From: Micromonospora phytophila
GTDB taxonomy: Bacteria > Actinomycetota > Actinomycetes > Mycobacteriales > Micromonosporaceae
NCBI RefSeq assembly: GCF_023656545.1
Contig: NZ_JAMOKF010000001.1
Span: 1-64,000 of the forward strand
DNA: 64,000 nt
Reading direction: 5' to 3'
A program made the translations under genes and the position numbers. Below the pieces are notes generated by a model. The model was not told the origin of the DNA. It made no database searches and worked only from the letters and a program-made list of their open reading frames with translations. Shown piece after piece: positions 18,317 to 27,386 of the stretch; the stretch's first letter is position 1, and every line of letters begins with the position of its first letter.

Positions 18317-19618
18317 ATGGCGCACCGCGAACTGCTGGACAGACACCGGTCCGTGATGCCGAGATGGCTGGCGCTGTACTACGAGCAGCCGATCGAGATG
18401 GCCAGCGCCCACGGTCGGCGGGTGACCGATCGCGAGGGGCGGACCTACCTCGACTTCTTCGCCGGCATCCTCACCAACGCGATCGGCTACGACGTGGCCG
18501 AGATCAGCGAGGCGGTGCGCTCGCAGCTCGACACCGGCGTGCTGCACTCCTCCACGCTGTACCTGATCACGTCGCAGGTCGAGCTCGCGGAGAAGATCGC
18601 GGCCCTGTCCGGCATCCCGGACGCCAAGGTGTTCTTCACCAACTCGGGCACCGAGGCGAACGAGACGGCGCTGATGCTCGCCACCCAGTACCGCCGCAGT
18701 GAGCAGGTGCTCGCGCTGCGCAACTCCTACCACGGCCGCGCCTTCGCCACCGTCGCCATCACCGGCAACCGCGGCTGGTCGGCCAGCGCGCTCAGCCCGA
18801 TCAAGGTGAGCTGGGTGCACGGCGGCTACCGCTACCGCAGCCCGTTCCGGGATCTGTCCGACCCGGACTACATCAAGGCCTGCGTCGCCGACCTGCGTGA
18901 GGTCATCGAGACGACGACTGCGGGAGATGTCGCCTGCATGATCGTCGAGCCGATCCAGGGGGTCGGTGGCTTCACCACCCCACCGAACGGGTTGTTCGGC
19001 GAGTTCAAGAAGGTGCTCGACGAATACGGCATCCTCCTCGTCTCCGACGAGGTGCAGACCGGCTGGGGCCGTACCGGCGAGCACTTCTGGGGTATCCAGG
19101 CGCACGACGTCGTGCCCGATGCGATCACCTTCGCCAAGGGTCTGGGCAACGGTCTCGCGATCGGGGGCGTGGTCGCACGTGGCGACCTCATGGACTGCCT
19201 GGGCGCCAACTCGATCTCCACCTTCGGTGGCAACCCGGTCGCCACCACCGGCGCCCTGGCGTCGCTGAACTACCTGCTGGAGCACGACCTGCAGGCCAAT
19301 GCCGCGAAGCTGGGCAGCCACCTGCTCGACGGTCTGCGCTCGGTCGCTGCGGCGCATCCCGTGGTCGGCGACGTCCGCGGCAAGGGCCTGATGATCGCGC
19401 TGGAGTTCGTCGGACCCGACGGCGCACCCAACCCGGCGGCCGCCGCCGCGCTGCTGGAGGAAACGCGTGAGCGTGGGTTGCTGGTCGGCAAGGGCGGCCT
19501 GTACGGCAACGTCATCCGCCTGGCGCCACCGATGACGCTGACCCAGGCCGAGGCGGAGGAGGCACTCGAGATCCTCACCCAGTCGATCGAGGCCGTGGCC
19601 AAGGAGGTGCAGCGATGA
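18317..19618 (+). CDS. Class III PLP aminotransferase (beta-alanine/beta-aminoisobutyrate type), 433 aa
   Basis: A fold-type I transaminase with NSGTEANETALM (cofactor phosphate region), LVSDEVQTGWGRTG (D244 contacts the pyridine nitrogen) and the Schiff-base lysine in ITFAKGLGNGL (K274). In this cluster it most likely converts beta-alanine or beta-aminoisobutyrate to the semialdehyde, with pyruvate or 2-oxoglutarate as acceptor. GABA or AGXT2-like activity cannot be excluded from sequence. It is followed by the semialdehyde dehydrogenase with an ATGA overlap, so the two are translationally coupled. Confidence 0.87.
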   Translation: MAHRELLDRHRSVMPRWLALYYEQPIEMASAHGRRVTDREGRTYLDFFAGILTNAIGYDVAEISEAVRSQLDTGVLHSSTLYLITSQVELAEKIAALSGIPDAKVFFTNSGTEANETALMLATQYRRSEQVLALRNSYHGRAFATVAITGNRGWSASALSPIKVSWVHGGYRYRSPFRDLSDPDYIKACVADLREVIETTTAGDVACMIVEPIQGVGGFTTPPNGLFGEFKKVLDEYGILLVSDEVQTGWGRTGEHFWGIQAHDVVPDAITFAKGLGNGLAIGGVVARGDLMDCLGANSISTFGGNPVATTGALASLNYLLEHDLQANAAKLGSHLLDGLRSVAAAHPVVGDVRGKGLMIALEFVGPDGAPNPAAAAALLEETRERGLLVGKGGLYGNVIRLAPPMTLTQAEAEEALEILTQSIEAVAKEVQR

Positions 19619-21105
19619 GGACCACGCACCGGATCGGCGGCAAGCCGTGGAACGGTGTCGCCGGGCGCACCGGTGACGTCTACGACCCCGCCACCGGCCA
19701 GGTCTCCGGACAGGTCGACTTCGCGACCGCCTCGGTCGTCGACGAGGCGGTGGCCGCCGCCGGCGAGGCGTTCTCCCGATGGCGTACGGCGTCCCTCGCG
19801 CAGCGGACGAGCGTGATGTTCTCATTCCGGGAGCTGCTCAACGCCCGCCGGTCCGACCTCGCCGAGATCGTCACGGCCGAGCACGGCAAGGTGCTGTCCG
19901 ACGCGGCGGGGGAGATCCAGCGCGGGCTGGAAGCCGTCGAGTTCGCCTGCGGGATCCCGCAACTGCTGAAGGGCGGGTTCAGCGAGAACGCCTCGACGCA
20001 GGTGGACGTGTACTCCATCCGGCAGCCGCTCGGCGTGGTCGGGGTGATCTCGCCCTTCAACTTCCCGGCAATGGTGCCGCTGTGGTTCGTGCCGAACGCG
20101 ATCGGGTGCGGCAACGCGGTGGTGCTCAAGCCGAGCGAGAAGGACCCGTCCGCGGCGAACTTCCTGGCGGAACTGTTCGCGGAGGCGGGGCTACCGGACG
20201 GTGTCCTCAACGTCGTGCACGGCGACAAGGAGGCGGTCGACCGGATTCTCGAGCATCCCGACGTCAAGGCCATCTCGTTCGTCGGCTCCACCCCGGTCGC
20301 CCGCTACGTGTATCAGACGGGCACCCAGCACGGGAAGCGCGTGCAGGCACTCGGCGGCGCGAAGAACCACATGGTCGTACTGCCCGACGCCGACCTCGAC
20401 CTCGCCGCCGACGCGGCCGTCTCGGCCGGCTTCGGCTCGTCGGGTGAACGCTGCATGGCCATCTCCGTCGTCGTGGCCGTCGACCCGGTCGGTGACGAGC
20501 TGGTCGGCAAGATCAGCGAGCGGATCAGCGCACTACATGTCGGCGACGGCCGTCGCCCCGGCTGCGAGATGGGACCGCTGGTCACCGGTGCTCACCGCGA
20601 CCGGGTGACGTCATACCTGGACGCTGGTCGGTCCGCCGGGGCGCATCTGGTGGTCGACGGGCGGAGCCACCCGATCGACGGTGAGCAGGGTGGCTTCTGG
20701 CTGGGGCCGACCCTCTTCGACCGGGTCGGCACCGACATGTCCATCTACACCGACGAGATCTTCGGACCGGTGCTCTCGGTGCTGCGGGTGCCCAGCTACG
20801 ACGCCGCCGTCGAGCTGGTCAACGCCAACCGGTACGGCAACGGCACGGCGATCTTCACCAACGACGGCGGCGCCGCCCGGCGGTACCAGAACGAGATCGA
20901 GGTCGGCATGGTCGGGGTGAACGTCCCAATCCCGGTCCCGGTGTCGTACTACTCCTTCGGGGGCTGGAAGGACTCACTGTTCGGTGACGCTCACGCGTAC
21001 GGGCCGGAGGGGGTGAACTTCTTCGTCAGATCCAAGGTGGTCACCAGTCGATGGCTCGACCCGTCCCACGGTGGAGTGAACCTCGGCTTCCCCCAGAACA
21101 CCTGA
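19615..21105 (+). CDS. mmsA: CoA-acylating (methyl)malonate-semialdehyde dehydrogenase, 496 aa
   Basis: An aldehyde dehydrogenase of the acylating MMSDH type: PLGVVGVISPFNFPAMVPLW, SFVGSTPVARYVY, LGGAKNHMVVLPDADLD and catalytic Cys in GSSGERCMAIS (C280). As in MMSDH, the general-base Glu of hydrolytic ALDHs is replaced (LGGAKNH). It would turn malonate semialdehyde into acetyl-CoA, or methylmalonate semialdehyde into propionyl-CoA, with NAD+ and CoA, completing beta-alanine degradation. ATG at 19615 overlaps the aminotransferase stop by four bases. Confidence 0.9.
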   Translation: MRTTHRIGGKPWNGVAGRTGDVYDPATGQVSGQVDFATASVVDEAVAAAGEAFSRWRTASLAQRTSVMFSFRELLNARRSDLAEIVTAEHGKVLSDAAGEIQRGLEAVEFACGIPQLLKGGFSENASTQVDVYSIRQPLGVVGVISPFNFPAMVPLWFVPNAIGCGNAVVLKPSEKDPSAANFLAELFAEAGLPDGVLNVVHGDKEAVDRILEHPDVKAISFVGSTPVARYVYQTGTQHGKRVQALGGAKNHMVVLPDADLDLAADAAVSAGFGSSGERCMAISVVVAVDPVGDELVGKISERISALHVGDGRRPGCEMGPLVTGAHRDRVTSYLDAGRSAGAHLVVDGRSHPIDGEQGGFWLGPTLFDRVGTDMSIYTDEIFGPVLSVLRVPSYDAAVELVNANRYGNGTAIFTNDGGAARRYQNEIEVGMVGVNVPIPVPVSYYSFGGWKDSLFGDAHAYGPEGVNFFVRSKVVTSRWLDPSHGGVNLGFPQNT

Positions 21106-21146
21106 GCACCGGAAGCGGAGCCGGTCTTGAACCCGCCGCCCGGGAG

Positions 21147-23366
21147 GTGTGGAACGCGCAGCGGCGTTCCGACGAGCCTTCTTTCGACGCCCTGCCTCCG
21201 AAGATTCGCAACATGGCGCGCCTGCCGCTGTACATGAGCCTCATCCGGGCTGCCAGGTCAACTGAGCCGCTCGGGCAACCCAACGCCTACCGGCTCGTGG
21301 AATTCTGCGTCGCCTCGATCTTGAGGGCAGCGGGCCTGGACGTCGACCATGCGACGGCGGACCTGACGGCAGTCGCGCGAAGGCAGCTCGCTGCGGCATG
21401 GGCGCACCATCTGCTTCCTGCGATCGAAGCCGACCCGCCAGGGAATATCGGCGACCTCACCGCTTCCCCGATCGCGAGACTCGTGCGGTCCGGCCTGTCC
21501 GGCAGCCTGACGTTCCATCACGACGTGATTCGTGAGTATCTCTTCGCACGGTGGCTCGCCCAGCTCATCGAGTCTCACGGTCGCTCGACGATCACCATCG
21601 AGCTGCTCAACGACCTTGCCGCTCGTACGAGCACATCAGGCGACTTGCGAGGCGTCCTGGAATTCCTACTGCAGGGTTTGGACGCGACGTCACCGGAGCT
21701 GCTGGCCGCCGTCGCTCAGTCGCCGTCGCTCAGCATCACCGAGACGTTGCCCCTGATGCTCGAACTCACCGGCGAAAGCCCAGCCTTCGCCACGGCTGAG
21801 GTGCTGCGCGTGTGCGCCTCTCGATGTCTGCACGACAATGGCCTGCAGCTCGCCAGAGCCCTCCTGCACACCAACGCAGCAGCTACCGCGCTGGGCGCGG
21901 AGTACCCCCGATGGATGCTGCGGGTGCTGCGCCGCTTCGGCCCGGCAGTCTGGTCCGACATCGTGGCGTGCGTCGAGAGGCAGCTGCCCATCGCGGCCGT
22001 CCAGGACTTCGTCCGTCTCGCGCAACTCGACACCGTAGAGGACGCGGTGTTCCTCGCCCGACACTTCTACGTCTTCCTCGCCGCTGACGACGGCAGTTCC
22101 CAGGAGCTGAAGGCACTCCTGGCTCACCCCGACTGGCGAGCCCGCGCCGCCCTCGCCGAGAGCATCCGAGCGGGCCACGCGATCCCACATCAGACGATGA
22201 TCTCGATCATGGAGTCATTGGCCGCGGACCGCGACTACAAGGTCCGCGCCACCGTCGCCGACGCCGTCGGTCGGTCGACCGCACCCGGCCTGGAACACCT
22301 GGTCGCCACTCTCCTCGAAGACCGGAACTGGCACGTCCGCGAACGCCTCCTCCATGGGCTGTCCTTCAAGGTCGCAGACGACGACTCGGCCGCCGAACTG
22401 GTCATCCGGGGCCAAGGAGCATGGCGTGATGGCCCTCGAAACGTCCGAATCGCCGCGCAGCGGCTTCTACTGAAGTGCGGCAGGGAACCGCTCCAGGACG
22501 CGGATTCCTCTCTTAGCGCCCTGTTCGGCCTGCTCCGAGAAATCCGCACCGGCGCCCTGCGGCTACCCACGAACGTCCAGTCCGCCCTGATCAGCCAGGG
22601 CGTCGCCTCGACCGACTGGCTCGTTCGCACCGAAGCCAACCTGCTCGACCGACACGACATCGCCACGAGCGCAGCCGCAGGCATCAGCAAGGAGGCCTTC
22701 CGGCGCCTCCGAGGCGGACGCGCCCTTCAAGTCGCACTCGACATCCGCGACATCGACCACGCCATCGCCGTCGCCCAGGCCGCCGCCAGCGCTGGCGTGC
22801 AATTCATCGAGATCGGCGATCCGCTCATCAAGAGCGTCGGCGTCCAAGTCATCAGTGCCATCAAGCAGCGAACCACTGGTGCGTGGATCGTCGCCGAGAT
22901 GATGTCCGCAGACTGGGGACGCGACCAGGTGGTCCTCGCGACCGAAGCCGGCGCCGACGTCGTACTGCTCATCGGACCCGCCAGCATCGCCAGCGTGTCC
23001 GCAGCGGCCGAAGCGAGCAGACGCCTGGGCGTCCCCATCATGATCGACGTGCCCGAGGGCAGGCTGATCCAGGGCTGGGTCCAGGACATGGAACGCGCGG
23101 GAGTCGACGGCTTCGCCATCACCACGAACATCGACCTGGGCGTGGCCGGCTTTCACCCCCTCGACCAGGCGCAACTCATCAGGTCGTGGACCAAGCTGCC
23201 GGTCGCGGTCTCCGGCGGCTTCGAACCCACCGACGTCGAAGCCAGCCGACGACGCTCATGGGACATCCTCGTCGTCGGTCGCGGAGTCACCGACTCCCTG
23301 GATCCCGCCGTCGCCGCCCGGGACCTCGCCGCGTCGATCGAACTCACCGAAGGACACCACTCATGA
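21147..23366 (+). CDS. 5'-truncated STAND/NACHT-like protein with HEAT-like repeats fused to a HUMPS/OMPDC-like TIM barrel
   Basis: In order: a helical region like that found after a NACHT ATPase (LPPKIRNMARLPLYMSLIRA, then TFHHDVIREYLFARWLAQLI); an alpha-helical repeat region with HEAT-like pairs (HPDWRARAALAESIRAG, DRDYKVRATVADAVGRS, EDRNWHVRERLLHGLS); and a C-terminal 215-residue TIM barrel (22719-23363) matching the 3-hexulose-6-phosphate synthase/orotidine-decarboxylase fold (QVALDIRDIDHAIAVAQ, QFIEIGDPLIKSVG, LPVAVSGGFEPTDVE, DILVVGRG). The family motif DxKxxD reads VAEMMSAD, so the Asp is Glu and the Lys is Met. No Walker A/B is present; the frame begins only 40 bp after mmsA, so the ATPase half is probably lost. 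GTG at 21147 is a guess at the start. Confidence 0.65.
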   Translation: MWNAQRRSDEPSFDALPPKIRNMARLPLYMSLIRAARSTEPLGQPNAYRLVEFCVASILRAAGLDVDHATADLTAVARRQLAAAWAHHLLPAIEADPPGNIGDLTASPIARLVRSGLSGSLTFHHDVIREYLFARWLAQLIESHGRSTITIELLNDLAARTSTSGDLRGVLEFLLQGLDATSPELLAAVAQSPSLSITETLPLMLELTGESPAFATAEVLRVCASRCLHDNGLQLARALLHTNAAATALGAEYPRWMLRVLRRFGPAVWSDIVACVERQLPIAAVQDFVRLAQLDTVEDAVFLARHFYVFLAADDGSSQELKALLAHPDWRARAALAESIRAGHAIPHQTMISIMESLAADRDYKVRATVADAVGRSTAPGLEHLVATLLEDRNWHVRERLLHGLSFKVADDDSAAELVIRGQGAWRDGPRNVRIAAQRLLLKCGREPLQDADSSLSALFGLLREIRTGALRLPTNVQSALISQGVASTDWLVRTEANLLDRHDIATSAAAGISKEAFRRLRGGRALQVALDIRDIDHAIAVAQAAASAGVQFIEIGDPLIKSVGVQVISAIKQRTTGAWIVAEMMSADWGRDQVVLATEAGADVVLLIGPASIASVSAAAEASRRLGVPIMIDVPEGRLIQGWVQDMERAGVDGFAITTNIDLGVAGFHPLDQAQLIRSWTKLPVAVSGGFEPTDVEASRRRSWDILVVGRGVTDSLDPAVAARDLAASIELTEGHHS

Positions 23367-23842
23367 TCATCGCGCCGCTCACGGTCGACCGGATTCCCGA
23401 CCTCGAGAAACTGCTGGCGCTGGGAGAGCCGTACATCAGGCTGCGGGGCTCATCGGACTACTGGCTGTACGCCACGCTGTTCGCCAACACCTGCCCACTC
23501 GCCATCATCGACGGGCAGGTCGCCGGCAGCGTGATCGCCTTCCGAAGCCAGGTCGACCCATCACAGATCTACCTGCAAGACGTGATGACGCACCCCAGCC
23601 ACCGCCGTCAAGGGGTCACGCGGGCGCTCGTGGAAGAGGTTCATCGCCAAGGGGCCCTCTGGGGATGCCGGCGCCTGTTCCTCACCTCGGAACCTGACAA
23701 CCACGCCGCGCACAGCGCATGGCTCGGCTTGGGCTTCAGTAACCGCTCAGGAGACACCACCGAGCAAGGCGTGTCCGTGATCTACGACTACAAGGGGCCG
23801 GGAAAGCACCGCGCCGTGTATGAGCGACAGATCGGCAGCTAA
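23363..23842 (+). CDS. GNAT-family N-acetyltransferase, 159 aa
   Basis: ATG at 23363 overlaps the stop of the HUMPS-fusion gene (ATGA), so the two are translationally coupled. The acetyl-CoA site is clear: IYLQDVMTHPSHRRQGVTRA has the V-x-P-x-x-R-x-x-G signature. It is followed by GCRRLFLTSEPDNHAAHSAW and an LGFSNRS tail, which is the usual N-x-x-A-x-x-x-x-x-GF close. The substrate is unknown. The tight coupling argues that it acts with the upstream protein, for example by modifying it or its ligand. Confidence 0.8.
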   Translation: MIIAPLTVDRIPDLEKLLALGEPYIRLRGSSDYWLYATLFANTCPLAIIDGQVAGSVIAFRSQVDPSQIYLQDVMTHPSHRRQGVTRALVEEVHRQGALWGCRRLFLTSEPDNHAAHSAWLGLGFSNRSGDTTEQGVSVIYDYKGPGKHRAVYERQIGS

Positions 23843-24111: not shown

Positions 24112-24408
24112 TCACGCGGCGCGTGGCGGTGCGGGTTGATGCAGGCGGAGTAGGCGGGCGAGTGTGGCGGCTTGGTCGACAGTAGGGAGGCCGGCTTCGG
24201 CGGCCAGTGCTTGGATCTCGGTCTCGGTGTCGGGGTCGGTCAGGTAGCGGGCCATCGACAGCGTCCCCGGCAGAACGGCAGGCTCGCGGTCGGGGTCGGG
24301 GTCGGGGTGTGCGGTCGGGGCCTCGCCGCCGGCTGCCCGCGTGGGCGGGGTCGGCGGCGACGGGTGTGGTGTGTTCGCGCGTGATGTCTGGTCACGGCGT
24401 GTGGCCAT
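24112..24408 (-). CDS. Small hypothetical protein of the mobile-element remnant, 98 aa
   Basis: ATG at 24408 follows a strong GGGAGGGAC ribosome-binding site. The N-terminal half is Pro/Ala/Asp-rich and probably disordered. The C-terminal half is ordered (ARYLTDPDTETEIQALAAEA, then LPTVDQAATLARLLRLHQ) and looks like a small helical domain. It lies downstream of the replication-relaxation gene on the same strand, where actinobacterial integrative elements often carry short accessory proteins. No function is known. Confidence 0.5.
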   Translation of the reverse strand: MATRRDQTSRANTPHPSPPTPPTRAAGGEAPTAHPDPDPDREPAVLPGTLSMARYLTDPDTETEIQALAAEAGLPTVDQAATLARLLRLHQPAPPRAA

Positions 24409-24818
24409 GTCCCTCCCAGGACGGCTCGTGGCGTGAGGCCGACGTTTCGGGCCATGGGCATCTCCTTGTCGTTGGTAGGGACTCGCTGAGGAATGATCGC
24501 CGCATTCCGCCAGCCGGAGTCGGCGGCGGCTCGACGAGCGGTGAGGGCCGTGGACGGTACACCGCGGAAGGAAGGTGTTCGCCACGCACAGCGACTCCCA
24601 GCGGCGTGCCTCTGTGGGCGGGCGCGGGGCGCCGCACGGCGCGGCTGACAGACTCTGACAGCTCCCGTTCGAGGCGAAGTCCGCTCCGGTCGCCTCGGTG
24701 CGCGCCCGTATGGGCGGGCGACGGCTACCGCCCCGGCGGCGTTGGCACGTGCGGGCGGGGTCGGCGGCGTGTGCGACCTTCAGGCCGCCGCACGCGCCAT
24801 GAGTTCCGCTACCCCTCA
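24409..24818. other. Gap inside the mobile-element remnant
   Basis: About 410 bp between the replication-relaxation gene and the small downstream gene. No convincing ORF, hairpin or repeat was found; the overlapping frames are GC artefacts. Confidence 0.35.
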
Positions 24819-25756
24819 TCAGGCGGCCCGCTCCTCCGGGGTGGGCTGGTGATGGGTGGGGTATTGGTCGTCGTGGCGGGTGTCGGTGTAGGGCAGGTCG
24901 ATGAGACGGTGACGGCCGGTACGGCCGGGCAGTTGCCAGACCTGGTGGGCGGGGCTGGCGGCGAGTGCGGTGCGCAGTTCGGCGGTAGTGGTGGCGATGA
25001 CAGTGGTCAGGTCGGGGACGGCGGCGAGGCGGTGGTGCAGGTTCGCCTCTCTTCGTGCGGAGGGGAGGTGGAACAGCACCGGCCAGGCCCAGGTGCTCAT
25101 GGTGTACAGCCGCTCGTACTTGATGACCTTGTCGATAAGGACCTGCAGGTGTTCCAGGCCCGTGTCGTACTCGAGGAGGAACGGCACCGACCGTCCGCGT
25201 TCGGTCCACACCCCGGCACCGTCCGGGCGGGGAAAGCCGGTCGCTCCGGCGATGATGATGTGCGGATCGCCGCCTTCGCGGTACAGGGTGCCGGGTTCGT
25301 GGTAGGCCGACGCGGGCTGCCAGCGGACCAGGTCGCCCTCGGGGTGGGTGCGGGCGTGGGCGGCGAGGTCGATGAAGACCTGGTTGCCGCCGAGCAGGTG
25401 CGGCAGGTCCGGTCGGTTGGTCAGGGAGTGTTTGCGGCGGCGGGCCTGGTCCCGGCGGCCTCGTGGAAGTCCGCGTTGGGCGTGGACGTGGTCGTAGCCG
25501 AGTTGGTCCAGGAGTAGTGGTAGGGATGGGAGCCGCCGTCAGCCTTGTTCGGCCGGAACCGGTCCACCGCCCGCAGGGCGGTGAGGCGGCGTAGCCGGCG
25601 TTGGGTGAAGTCCAGCGATGGGAACAGGGCGACGGCGATCTGGTCGGTGGTGAACACGCCGTGGTCGTAGAGCCAGCCCAGCAGCCGGTCGTCAAGGGCG
25701 GTGATGCTGGCCTGCAGGCGCAGCAGCGGGTCCGCGGTCGGTAGGTGTTTACCCAT
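24819..25756 (-). pseudogene. Replication-relaxation family protein gene with a one-base frameshift
   Basis: From ATG 25756 the sequence reads like the replication-relaxation family: GKHLPTADPLLRLQASITAL, DDRLLGWLYDHGVFTTDQIA, LFPSLDFTQRRLRRL. It then passes into HPYHYSWTNSATTT. In the next frame it continues exactly as the family should: LLDQLGYDHVHAQRG, LPHLLGGNQVFIDLAAHART, HEPGTLYREGGDPHIIIAGA, GVWTERGRSVPFLLEYDTG, WAWPVLFHLPSARREANLHH. One missing C at about 25517 (CACTACTCCTGG for CACTACCTCCTGG) accounts for the change. These winged-helix proteins belong to actinobacterial plasmids and integrative elements. Inactive as written, unless the deletion is a sequencing error. Confidence 0.75.
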
Positions 25757-26199
25757 GGGCAGAAGCCCCTGGGGGGAGACCCGAGACTGGAGGGTCTGTC
25801 TGGAGCGGCCTCGCACCGCTGACAGCGGGGCTGACCTGGGCTGTGAGCGGCTGTGGGGGGTCAGGTTGGGGGTCAGCATCAAGACGGACGGTAGAACGGA
25901 GATCGGCACTGACTGCTGAACCGCCGGGCACAACGGTTGCCGGGCGACGGTGCCGTGAGAGTTTGCGTGCGTCCGGTCGGCGACGCCGGTGGAGGTCGTC
26001 GGGTTGGGTCGTCATCGTTGTTGCTCCAAGCGTCATCGTTGTTGCTCCAATATGTGGGTGGGTGTGCGGTGCGCGCCGACCGCTGCGGCGGGAACGCGCT
26101 GACAGGTCTGGTCCGGTTGTGTCAGCTGCCGCGCCTCAGGGGAGACGCGGGTCTGACAGCGGCGGCTCGATCTGACAGAAGCCGTGGGTCGAAGTTCTG
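25757..26199. other. Upstream region of the replication-relaxation gene
   Basis: No gene is supported here. The notable content is a pair of 19-bp direct repeats (26011-26050, listed separately). Frames crossing the region are Arg/Ser/Pro-rich and occur on both strands. Confidence 0.4.
26011..26050. repeat. Two 19-bp direct repeats at 21-bp spacing
   Basis: GTCATCGTTGTTGCTCCAA occurs at 26011-26029 and again at 26032-26050, separated by GC. A 21-bp period is two helical turns, so a protein could bind both copies on one face. Being 250 bp upstream of the replication-relaxation gene, they could be iterons or operator sites. There are only two copies, so a simple tandem duplication is also possible. 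Confidence 0.6.
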
Positions 26200-26588
26200 T
26201 CACGCGGCCTCCGGCGGTGACAGATCCGGTGCGGGCGGGGTGGTCTCGGCTCGCAGGGCGCGCACGAGCGCGGAGGCGGTGGCGTTGGACAGCTGGTGCC
26301 CATCCGCGCGTAGCTGGTGAGCGAGGGCCTTGCGGGACAGCGGTGTCCCCTCGGCGGTGAGGGTGCGGGCGGCGGTCCGGGCGGCCGGCACCAGCGCGGC
26401 GACTTCCGGACCGTCCTCGTTTGTGGGGGCCTCGGTGTCCCGGCGGTCCGGGACCGCCGACGGTTGGTCCGTGACGGCGGGGACTGCGATCCTGGAGTCC
26501 GGGACCGCGGCGGCGGTGACGGGGACCGGAGGATGGATGTCCGGGACCGACGCGTCGACAGCGGACGTCGGTCCGTGCTTCGTCCGCT
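26200..26588 (-). pseudogene. C-terminal fragment of a DUF2637-type plasmid transfer protein
   Basis: The last ~130 codons read as a proline-rich linker followed by a small winged-helix-like domain (ALVPAARTAARTLTAEGTPL, SRKALAHQLRADGHQLSNAT, ASALVRALR). This is how SpdB/DUF2637 proteins of actinobacterial conjugative elements end. The membrane-spanning N-terminal half that defines the family is missing: upstream of about 26590 the frame runs into sequence coding on the other strand. It lies upstream of the replication-relaxation gene on the same strand, the order expected in such elements. Confidence 0.5.
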
Positions 26589-26589
26589 C

Positions 26590-26778
26590 GAGCTGAGTGG
26601 TCCGGCCGCCCTGTCGATCGTCTTCCTGCTGCTGACGTACTTCGCGCCGGGAATGTTCAAGACCGTGCTCACCGTGCGAACCGGCAACGCCTGGGTCCAC
26701 GTCTGGGCCTACCACGCACTCGCGCCACATACCCTCGCCGACACACCACACATGGTCCACGTCTTCCACCTCAAGTAG
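26590..26778 (+). pseudogene. C-terminal fragment of a membrane protein
   Basis: From about 26590 the plus strand codes for one hydrophobic helix and a conserved-looking tail: GPAALSIVFLLLTYFAPGMF, then VLTVRTGNAWVHVWAYHALA and PHTLADTPHMVHVFHLK before TAG. The upstream part of the frame is antisense to the DUF2637 fragment, so only the 3' end of the gene survives. The join at about 26588-26590 marks a recombination junction. Confidence 0.45.
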
Positions 26779-27386
26779 AAGGCGAGCCAACGTCGGGACG
26801 GCTCTCCCAGGCCGTACGCCTCACAGGGCCGCCAATGCCTCTCGTTGCCTGCACGGGTGCAACAAGGCCTCCACGTCCCGGCGTTCAAACCCTTCCCCCT
26901 GGTCCTCTTCTTGAAAGGAATCCCATGGCGTTTCGCCACCCCGTGAGACAGGCCCCCGCCACGGCCACCACCGCCCGGCAGGCGACCGATGGCCGCTACC
27001 AGTTGCCCGTCCTGCCCAGTTGACGGGCGCTCGGGCGAACGACCACCGCGGCGATCAACACCGACCACACCGGTGAAGGCTTCGACGCCGGCGACGCCAC
27101 GTCGGCGGTGAGGGCGGAGCCGACACGGCGACCGCCGCGCTGGCGCGGGAGGATCGTTCCGGCCCCGCGCTACCTTCCGCTGCTGAGACTCGGACTCGTA
27201 CCGGTGCTCTGCGTGCTGCAGCACGCAGAGCACCGGCGACTCAGGGACCTGGCCCAGCGTCGGCCAGGCTGTTGGAACCGCAGACTCCGGCAAGGAGCCG
27301 ATCAGCCACGACAGCACCTGCGCCGGTCCTCGACCAGGTCGGCTCCACGCCGTGATGCCCCGCGCGGCGGTCAGCCGGGCTGGTGG
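26779..27386. other. Non-coding end of the mobile-element remnant, with a palindrome and one tiny ORF
   Basis: Nothing of normal gene length is supported. A 32-codon ORF at 26925-27023 (MAFRHPVRQAPATATTARQA...) follows a GAAAGGAA site and might be a small peptide gene, but it has no recognised family. A perfect 36-bp palindrome lies at 27201-27236 (listed separately). Confidence 0.35.
27201..27236. repeat. Perfect 36-bp palindrome
   Basis: CCGGTGCTCTGCGTGCTG is followed at once by its exact reverse complement, centred on CTGCAG, with no spacer. It is too symmetrical for a terminator, which needs a loop. It resembles two inverted copies of an 18-bp end joined head to head, as in an excision scar or element junction; a binding site for a dimeric recombinase is another possibility. 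Confidence 0.85.

Follow-up and report, generated by a model that had tools for sequence, protein, structure and literature searches.

MalT of E. coli (PMC4381067, PMC10427625) joins in one chain a helix-turn-helix (HTH) effector, a nucleotide-binding NOD, an arm and a C-terminal small-molecule sensor, and passages of PMC4381067 report that the NOD opens when the inducer binds sensor and arm, ahead of nucleotide exchange. AfsR is presented, in passages of PMC10936776, as a STAND regulator of antibiotic production with the order SARP-NOD-TPR. Here we analysed a 64,000-nt stretch of Micromonospora phytophila (NCBI RefSeq assembly GCF_023656545.1, contig NZ_JAMOKF010000001.1, positions 1 to 64,000, forward strand), called the window throughout, which appears from sequence comparison to hold the remnant of a gene for a STAND (NLR-like) switch together with its intact GNAT acetyltransferase partner. 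The intact homologues are predicted to have the order HTH, NACHT-type NTPase, HEAT repeats and HUMPS barrel. Loci and genomes are denoted below by L and G numbers.

The family shares with MalT the joining of HTH effector, NOD, arm and C-terminal sensor, the effector and sensor roles being predicted. It differs in its N-terminal HTH, which in MalT is C-terminal, in a NOD nearer to animal NACHT proteins (Z 21.5 with NLRC4 vs 14.0 with MalT), in the HUMPS barrel, which would be the sensor, and in the constant GNAT partner. With AfsR it would have in common an actinobacterial STAND regulator with an N-terminal DNA-binding domain and a tie to natural products, but AfsR is a global regulator with a SARP instead of an XRE-like HTH and TPR instead of HEAT and barrel, and passages of PMC10936776 mention no GNAT partner. 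The likeness to animal NLRs (NLRC4, NLRP3, NOD2) lies, by model, in the NTPase and following helical domains (Z 19-21), whereas the effector is an HTH or a caspase and an enzyme barrel, not leucine-rich repeats, stands at the end. Hexulose-phosphate synthase and KGPDC, both of the HUMPS type, have the same barrel fold (Z 24-27) and phosphate-loop residues, but the barrel of the family has ExMxxD for DxKxxD and is fused to STAND in most copies seen; the roles of the KGPDC active-site residues are those we assume, except for mutant names, which come from PDB titles. The EACC1-type and ternary conflict systems of PMC7159879 also comprise, in passages of that paper, STAND proteins of multicellular bacteria with varied effectors, and an EACC1-type caspase occurs here in L043, the only copy of the family with a caspase. 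The terms TIM barrel, orotidine, hexulose and GNAT are absent from its main text, in which one GCN5-like acetyltransferase effector is mentioned. The open-licence papers searched gave no STAND-HUMPS fusion, i.e. no STAND protein ending in a metabolic barrel, and the 13-bp upstream element with its alternative, the EACC1-type caspase copy and the proximity to FxLD lanthipeptide genes in four lineages are new. The initial annotation had proposed an undescribed two-gene system of STAND, barrel and GNAT, which stands for the family as far as the searches reach, and fails for the window copy, which cannot switch.

Homologues were collected in separate searches whose locus sets overlap in genomes (L035, L038 and L039 have identical P450 neighbours). 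Scanning genome_contigs with peptide seeds, one genome per species in 84,980 species, gave 26 loci in Micromonospora, Rugosimonospora, Pilimelia, Nocardiopsis, Streptomyces, Saccharopolyspora, Actinomadura, Nocardia, Amycolatopsis, Myceligenerans, Gandjariella, Sinosporangium, a Micromonosporaceae metagenome-assembled genome (MAG) and a Ktedonobacter MAG. One seed was V[AV]E[ML]MSAD itself, so that conservation of the EMMSAD motif among these 26 named loci is partly built in. The match runs from HTH to barrel in 19 of the 26, L040 among them across a frameshift. Within the same family of genomes as the window, 15/150 genomes matched at E<=1e-3, some of these matches being ordinary barrels, and full-length open reading frames (ORFs) of 1025-1047 aa were present in 7 of the 150; 21/350 matched at E<=1e-40, own genome included, and in 17 of those 21 the match covers most of the protein (rows judged by eye). 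Another family gave matches in 3/250 genomes at E<=1e-30, which add no independent loci because the sequences are the same as L030, L034 and L045, and 35 genomes of the family of G329 gave no match. The protein is a rare one: among 394 genomes of the class, nothing beyond the HTH part matched at E<=1e-30 outside the own genome. The HTH half alone was dropped as a family marker, as this class search gave HTH-only matches in three other genomes; two of them (G270, G423) look by eye like HTH-TPR regulators and the third (G415) gave no gene call. In viral contigs none of 19 pattern matches was confirmed as a relative, which speaks little either way. For plasmids (124 records), all of the 20 matches listed are annotated hxlA but one, unannotated, and none of them covers 80% of the query. 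A related protein of 533 aa in genome G004 (L015:1477-3075) has HTH, HEAT and HUMPS parts, no NTPase match, and AVTAID in place of EMMSAD.

A structure was predicted with AlphaFold2 for the protein of Micromonospora sp. CB01531 (pLDDT 82, pTM 0.68), and, because a fold search with the whole protein gave only barrel matches, the NTPase-helical part was predicted and searched alone (pLDDT 86, pTM 0.86). This part matched NLRC4 (4kxf; Z 21.5, 431 residues, 5.2 A), NLRP3 (Z 20-21), NOD2 (Z 20), the NB-ARC of NRC1 (Z 15.3) and MalT (8bob; Z 14.0, 297 residues, 6.3 A); according to a caution given with the tool, values of Z as high as about 13 may carry little meaning for helical proteins, and the NLR rows are higher. 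Foldseek placed NLRP3 at 7.5e-7 and, as second match, Avs4 at 1.6e-6. The Pfam signal for the P-loop is weak (AAA_22 4.9e-5; NACHT 0.0067 in L041), and Walker A is found in 18/18 aligned homologues. The model argues for a NACHT/NLR-like fold of the NTPase and following helical domains.

The barrel of the homologue model superposes on hexulose-phosphate synthase 3f4w with Z 26.9 (2.0 A, 208 residues, 26% identity) and matches Pfam PF00215 at 4.6e-12. The DxKxxD motif is replaced by ExMxxD, the catalytic Lys having become Met and the first Asp Glu (VAEMMSADWG in the window vs VADLKTMDTG in hexulose-phosphate synthase 9lj9). The motif VAEMMSADWGRD is present in 26 of 30 loci, with a one- or two-letter variant in the other 4, and the Lys position is Met in 30/30 barrels compared (four of 34 rows had been dropped beforehand), which include the 9 barrels found by whole-protein search (L076, L078, L080, L083-L088; 9/9). 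In the phosphate loop, S-G-G and G-R are invariant in 21 aligned rows. The barrel looks like an enzyme fold from which the catalytic Lys is gone but the phosphate-loop residues are not. Lys loss does not imply loss of binding, since the K64A mutant of KGPDC, in which the same Lys is gone, was crystallised with bound hydroxamate phosphate (title of 1so4, which is in the barrel match list).

The GNAT gene directly follows the barrel in 26/26 named loci (tblastn, 45-99% identity; the gene of L031 reaches the edge of its contig). A further search gave 16 regions, several of them from the same species, and the GNAT has this position in every one (in L089 it is interrupted). Barrel and GNAT distances are correlated (r 0.855), and 0/2000 permutations were as high, in 30 loci from which L023, L033, L036 and the window had been dropped beforehand; this points to shared inheritance, although adjacency alone would give the same correlation. 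Among copies with a broken STAND gene, the window, L021, L045, L047, L048, L091 and L092 retain a full-length GNAT, while the GNAT is also broken in L016, L089 and a second copy of the window genome on contig C77, a count which is small and uncontrolled and in which the GNAT sits 3' of the breaks. The closest solved structures by sequence are EctA (4.8e-12) and YqjY (6.7e-11). A GNAT search in the class found 3/394 genomes, i.e. the own genome, G329 (weak) and G493 (remnant). In the last, GNAT and barrel remnant (L092/L095, G493:C42:1-1565) lie beside repeats that, read by eye, resemble a CRISPR array by translation. The Ktedonobacter MAG, sole non-actinobacterial member among the loci seen, carries a stand-alone barrel gene with EMMSADWG and a GNAT (L046:7021-9280), preceded by small HTH-like and NUDIX-like ORFs.

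The HTH-like sequence of protein P0003 scores below cut-off (HTH_3 0.0076, HTH_31 0.0092). We found a 13-bp element, TAGNNNTGYCCTA, in exact form 79-100 bp before the assumed start in 14/27 upstream regions scored, a set in which the start used for L086 is probably wrong and outside which L029, L040 and L043 lie; the carriers are L028, L030, L034, L035, L036, L087 and eight Micromonospora-type copies, which are close relatives. Exactly one site is present in 30/96 loci, redundant copies counted; one of these is L046, whose site lies at the far end and is unrelated to the gene. In whole genomes the element occurs 0-2 times (11 genomes): G036, G592, G679, G731 and G090 have one site ahead of the STAND gene, the count is 0 in G114 (variant site) and in the window genome (promoter lost), and four genomes with no STAND match gave 0, 0, 1 and 0. 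Per genome, a reversed control sequence is present 1-19 times, and the pattern is therefore rare in itself. A weight matrix trained on seven sites adds L025, L026, L031 and L083, at -81 to -107. Among the nine regions negative in the matrix scan, four carry a second element: L032, L033, L037 and L042, whose recognition helix is AQSTV instead of AAVSN or the like, share TGATCGNNNNTGATCA, which is in no other of the 96 loci. These copies represent three lineages, L032 and L033 being close relatives. Since helix type and element type match, this is the best evidence for an HTH acting at its own promoter. Both TAGNNNTGYCCTA and TGATCGNNNNTGATCA are candidate operators; a promoter or other function is also possible.

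The N-terminus is not the same in all copies. In Nocardia jiangxiensis (L043) a caspase domain with YYVGHG and DCCYSG replaces the HTH, matching the NCBIfam model 'caspase, EACC1-associated type' (NF047832) with 214 bits vs a cut-off of 140 and Pfam Peptidase_C14 just above its cut-off (21.8 vs 21.4), and NTPase, HEAT, barrel and GNAT follow it in the usual order. L086 has a different XRE-type HTH (HTH_31 6.4e-10, above cut-off), and L029 a short N-terminus with no recognised effector. The constant parts of the family are the putative sensor end and the GNAT, the N-terminal effector being the part that varies. The caspase form, known from one locus in a set whose other N-termini were scanned in part, suggests that the same sensor may also be wired to proteolysis, and some members may have a role in conflict.

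We give an even chance to the reading that the intact system is an auto-regulated STAND switch, in which a dead enzyme barrel senses a phosphometabolite and the GNAT acts on that molecule. Precisely, a phosphorylated metabolite would bind the C-terminal HUMPS barrel of intact copies, upon which the HEAT arm would let go of the NACHT core, and the core would leave its closed ADP state, as in MalT. The opened protein would multimerise and its N-terminal effector would act; this would usually be the HTH, working at an element of its own that lies 79-100 bp before the start of its gene, and setting the level of the STAND-GNAT operon, perhaps also that of the divergent operon. The GNAT would acetylate the same metabolite or the product of the cluster, for self-protection or reset. 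Architecture, Lys loss, GNAT linkage, conserved elements, one effector swap and FxLD proximity are computed observations, and ligand binding, ATP switch, DNA binding, direction of regulation and GNAT substrate are what we infer from them. More tentatively, and at somewhat less than even chance, the family may be read as bacterial NLRs with a retired HUMPS enzyme as ligand sensor, interchangeable outputs (HTHs of several kinds acting at their own promoter, or an EACC1-type caspase) and an acetyltransferase, always present, by which the signal is made or removed, so that a phosphometabolite would be connected to lanthipeptide and other clusters or to cell death.

Several points weigh against the auto-regulated switch. 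A Lys-less barrel could still catalyse other chemistry; L015, which is related and has no NTPase, has Thr and not Met at the Lys position, and in L046 barrel and GNAT are paired with no fused STAND. The weight matrix finds no first element in 9/27 regions (L027, L032, L033, L037, L041, L042, L085, L086, L088), and three N-termini lie outside the common HTH, namely the caspase of L043, the other HTH of L086 and the N-terminus of L029, in which no effector is recognised. One common ligand is hard to name because the neighbouring operon differs between lineages, and the FxLD count described below is post hoc, so that two accessory features could simply be sharing islands.

In 19/23 loci the gene called closest upstream of the STAND gene runs divergently. 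Within these operons, genes for a DegT aminotransferase, a zinc dehydrogenase and a deoxynucleoside-kinase-like protein are common to the Micromonospora group and L027 (72, 67 and 44% identity), a carbamoyltransferase lies in those of L025 and L042, with a thymidylate-synthase-like gene in L042, and a radical SAM gene in those of L028 and L087. Other neighbours are not biosynthetic: an AAA protein in L026, an XRE regulator in L027, an ATP-binding protein in L088, a gene with no family in L086 and a same-strand FGGY kinase in L043. Matches above cut-off to the FxLD lanthipeptide methyltransferase TIGR04364 were found at L032, L033, L034, L086 and L088, i.e. four lineages within about 4 kb of such a gene. 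Peptides that resemble precursors, having an F/W-x-L-D leader and ends rich in Cys, accompany L032, L033, L034 and L088, and L086 has the methyltransferase only, with no precursor-like peptide among those identified; thiopep_ocin matches occur in L032, L033, L034 and L040 and a LANC_like match in L034. L086 and L088 have their methyltransferase gene on the side of the GNAT, outside any divergent operon. G123 has a further TIGR04364 match 8.7 kb from its remnant, and the window genome has no TIGR04364 match. With 125 matches at E<=1e-60 in 150 genomes as background, random placement would give an FxLD gene within 9 kb in 0.05-0.17 of about 24 lineages, vs four seen, a Poisson estimate that is post hoc, uses our own grouping into lineages and takes its background from one family.

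A test of biosynthetic against other nearest neighbours was not decisive, as enzymes are frequent upstream and several lie downstream of the GNAT too (NUDIX twice, ThiC, inositol phosphatase, HAD), and for the cluster linkage we therefore rely on the FxLD count and the DegT trio. Of the genes called beyond the GNAT, the first is a NUDIX gene in L034:11826-12431, L037:12661-13146, L085:2675-3205 and L091:12894-13346, and the second is one in L048; by a rough count with assumed values of 27 loci and 6,500 genes in each genome about 0.13 would be expected, five genomes holding 26-34 NUDIX matches each. ThiC and NMT1/THI5-like genes are the first called past the GNAT in L035:11903-13228 and L026:11828-13099, and a pyrimidine or thiamine-precursor link is possible in these two loci.

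It is doubtful, but a serious alternative, that the linkage with ribosomally synthesised peptide and other biosynthetic genes is non-functional, the STAND-GNAT unit being an accessory cassette inserted into islands where gene clusters also settle. Beyond the GNAT, the first gene called in L032 is a transposase and the second in L027 is an integrase, the window and C77 copies are rearranged pieces, and the type of neighbouring operon varies by lineage. The four lineages near FxLD methyltransferases exceed random placement, subject to the limits given above, and the DegT, dehydrogenase and kinase trio is kept in L027 and the Micromonospora group, whose STAND proteins are 44% identical; both argue against a mere cassette.

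We consider it unlikely that the protein is a conflict or antiphage receptor, whose barrel would detect infection or the resulting change of a nucleotide or sugar phosphate and trigger cell death or a stress programme, with the GNAT as antidote or modulator. The caspase of L043, which is EACC1-associated, replaces the HTH with the GNAT still following, presence is patchy (21/350 genomes at E<=1e-40, 3/250 of another family at E<=1e-30), the fold is NLR-like with Avs4 as second Foldseek match, and the antiphage NCBIfam models EruA (5.4e-5), HyoA and IteA match P0003, all weakly and far below cut-off, as do HyoA and EruA the helical region of the window. Against this, PADLOC gave no family for P0001 and P0002, and its matches in four homologues of intact or caspase type were short, weak and for the most part confined to the P-loop; most copies begin with an HTH and have a conserved element upstream, several neighbours are biosynthetic, and the caspase form is 1 locus; that no viral relative was confirmed adds little. 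Antiphage defence, which the initial annotation had brought up for STAND proteins of this build, is thus less supported than the regulatory switch. That barrel and GNAT are instead the enzyme pair of a small pathway with changed barrel chemistry, STAND being a regulator fused to it in most actinomycete copies seen, is about as unlikely: divergence is lower in the barrel than in the NTPase and HEAT parts, barrel distances follow those of the GNAT, a separate barrel gene precedes the GNAT in L046, and EctA, nearest solved structure of the GNAT by sequence, is a small-molecule acetyltransferase, but Lys is replaced in 30/30 barrels, what we take to be the active-site His of hexulose-phosphate synthase aligns with Thr, and no other gene cluster is present in >9/26 loci within 8 kb (with a lossy gene caller), the top one being an XRE-type regulator.

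In the window, the gene for methylmalonate-semialdehyde dehydrogenase (mmsA, a name taken from the initial annotation; 19615-21105, + strand), which lies outside the system, is intact and complete to its C-terminus compared with its paralogues L003/L004, and homology to these stops at 21108-21112. The intact copy of Micromonospora endolithica (L024:8881-11586) aligns from 21136 to 23841 of the window (98.0% over 2,706 bp), and no match to it was reported just before 21136. As homology with the intact copy begins only there, the STAND gene is 5'-truncated; homology ends on both sides of a junction at 21113-21135 (no strand), between sequence downstream of mmsA and the remnant, and codons 1 to about 294 are therefore lost. 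The 3' remnant (21136-23366), from residue ~295 of ~1037, lies in an ORF open to 23366 with possible starts at ATG 21051 or GTG 21147. This ORF is not due to chance, as dN/dS is 0.145-0.262 in all pairs among 11 sequences including it, and the small divergence from L024 (dN 0.010, dS 0.044) suggests that the N-terminal loss is recent. HTH, Walker A and Walker B are absent. What is kept comprises the motif FHHDVIREYLFARWLA of the post-NTPase helical region (21513-21560, computed from the L024 comparison), HEAT repeats (22107-22364; Pfam HEAT_2 9.7e-8) that in the homologue model are part of a longer helical superhelix, the HUMPS/OMPDC-type TIM barrel (22707-23354; Pfam OMPdecase/HUMPS 2.1e-13) with EMMSAD in place of DxKxxD (22896-22913), and the GNAT gene (159 aa, 23363-23842; Pfam PF00583 6.9e-15), whose start overlaps the barrel stop as ATGA at 23363, all on the + strand. 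The initial annotation had read this region as a truncated STAND/NACHT-type gene joining HEAT repeats and a barrel in one polypeptide, the barrel lacking its Lys and keeping its phosphate loop, coupled by ATGA to a GNAT in a two-gene unit, and had foreseen full-length relatives with a P-loop and a barrel of hexulose-phosphate synthase fold; alignments, homologue model and family searches bear this out.

Because the N-terminal ~294 residues are gone, no switch can work in the window genome, where only the GNAT may be able to function; searching this genome (88% complete) revealed no intact STAND copy. A second, shorter copy (G000:C77:20098-21107; L005:7034-9335) follows window 22493-23502 at 94% and then jumps to window 25532-26595; its GNAT breaks off at codon 47, where a deletion has fused it to that sequence. 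Downstream of the GNAT, window 24078-26605 matches the intact locus at L024:11761-14315 with 84% identity and is perhaps an integrated mobile element; we take 24112-25933 to be a 'replication-relaxation protein' and 26200-26790 to be 'DUF2637'.

If the proposed switch is correct, the family would show how an ordinary enzyme can come to form the receptor end of a switch of the NLR type. It would offer a bacterial NLR whose chemical ligand can be guessed, as a phosphate of a sugar or nucleotide, and whose upstream element is mapped. It would also provide a handle on silent lanthipeptide and other clusters of actinomycetes, and what bacterial STAND proteins sense would become addressable through one small domain.

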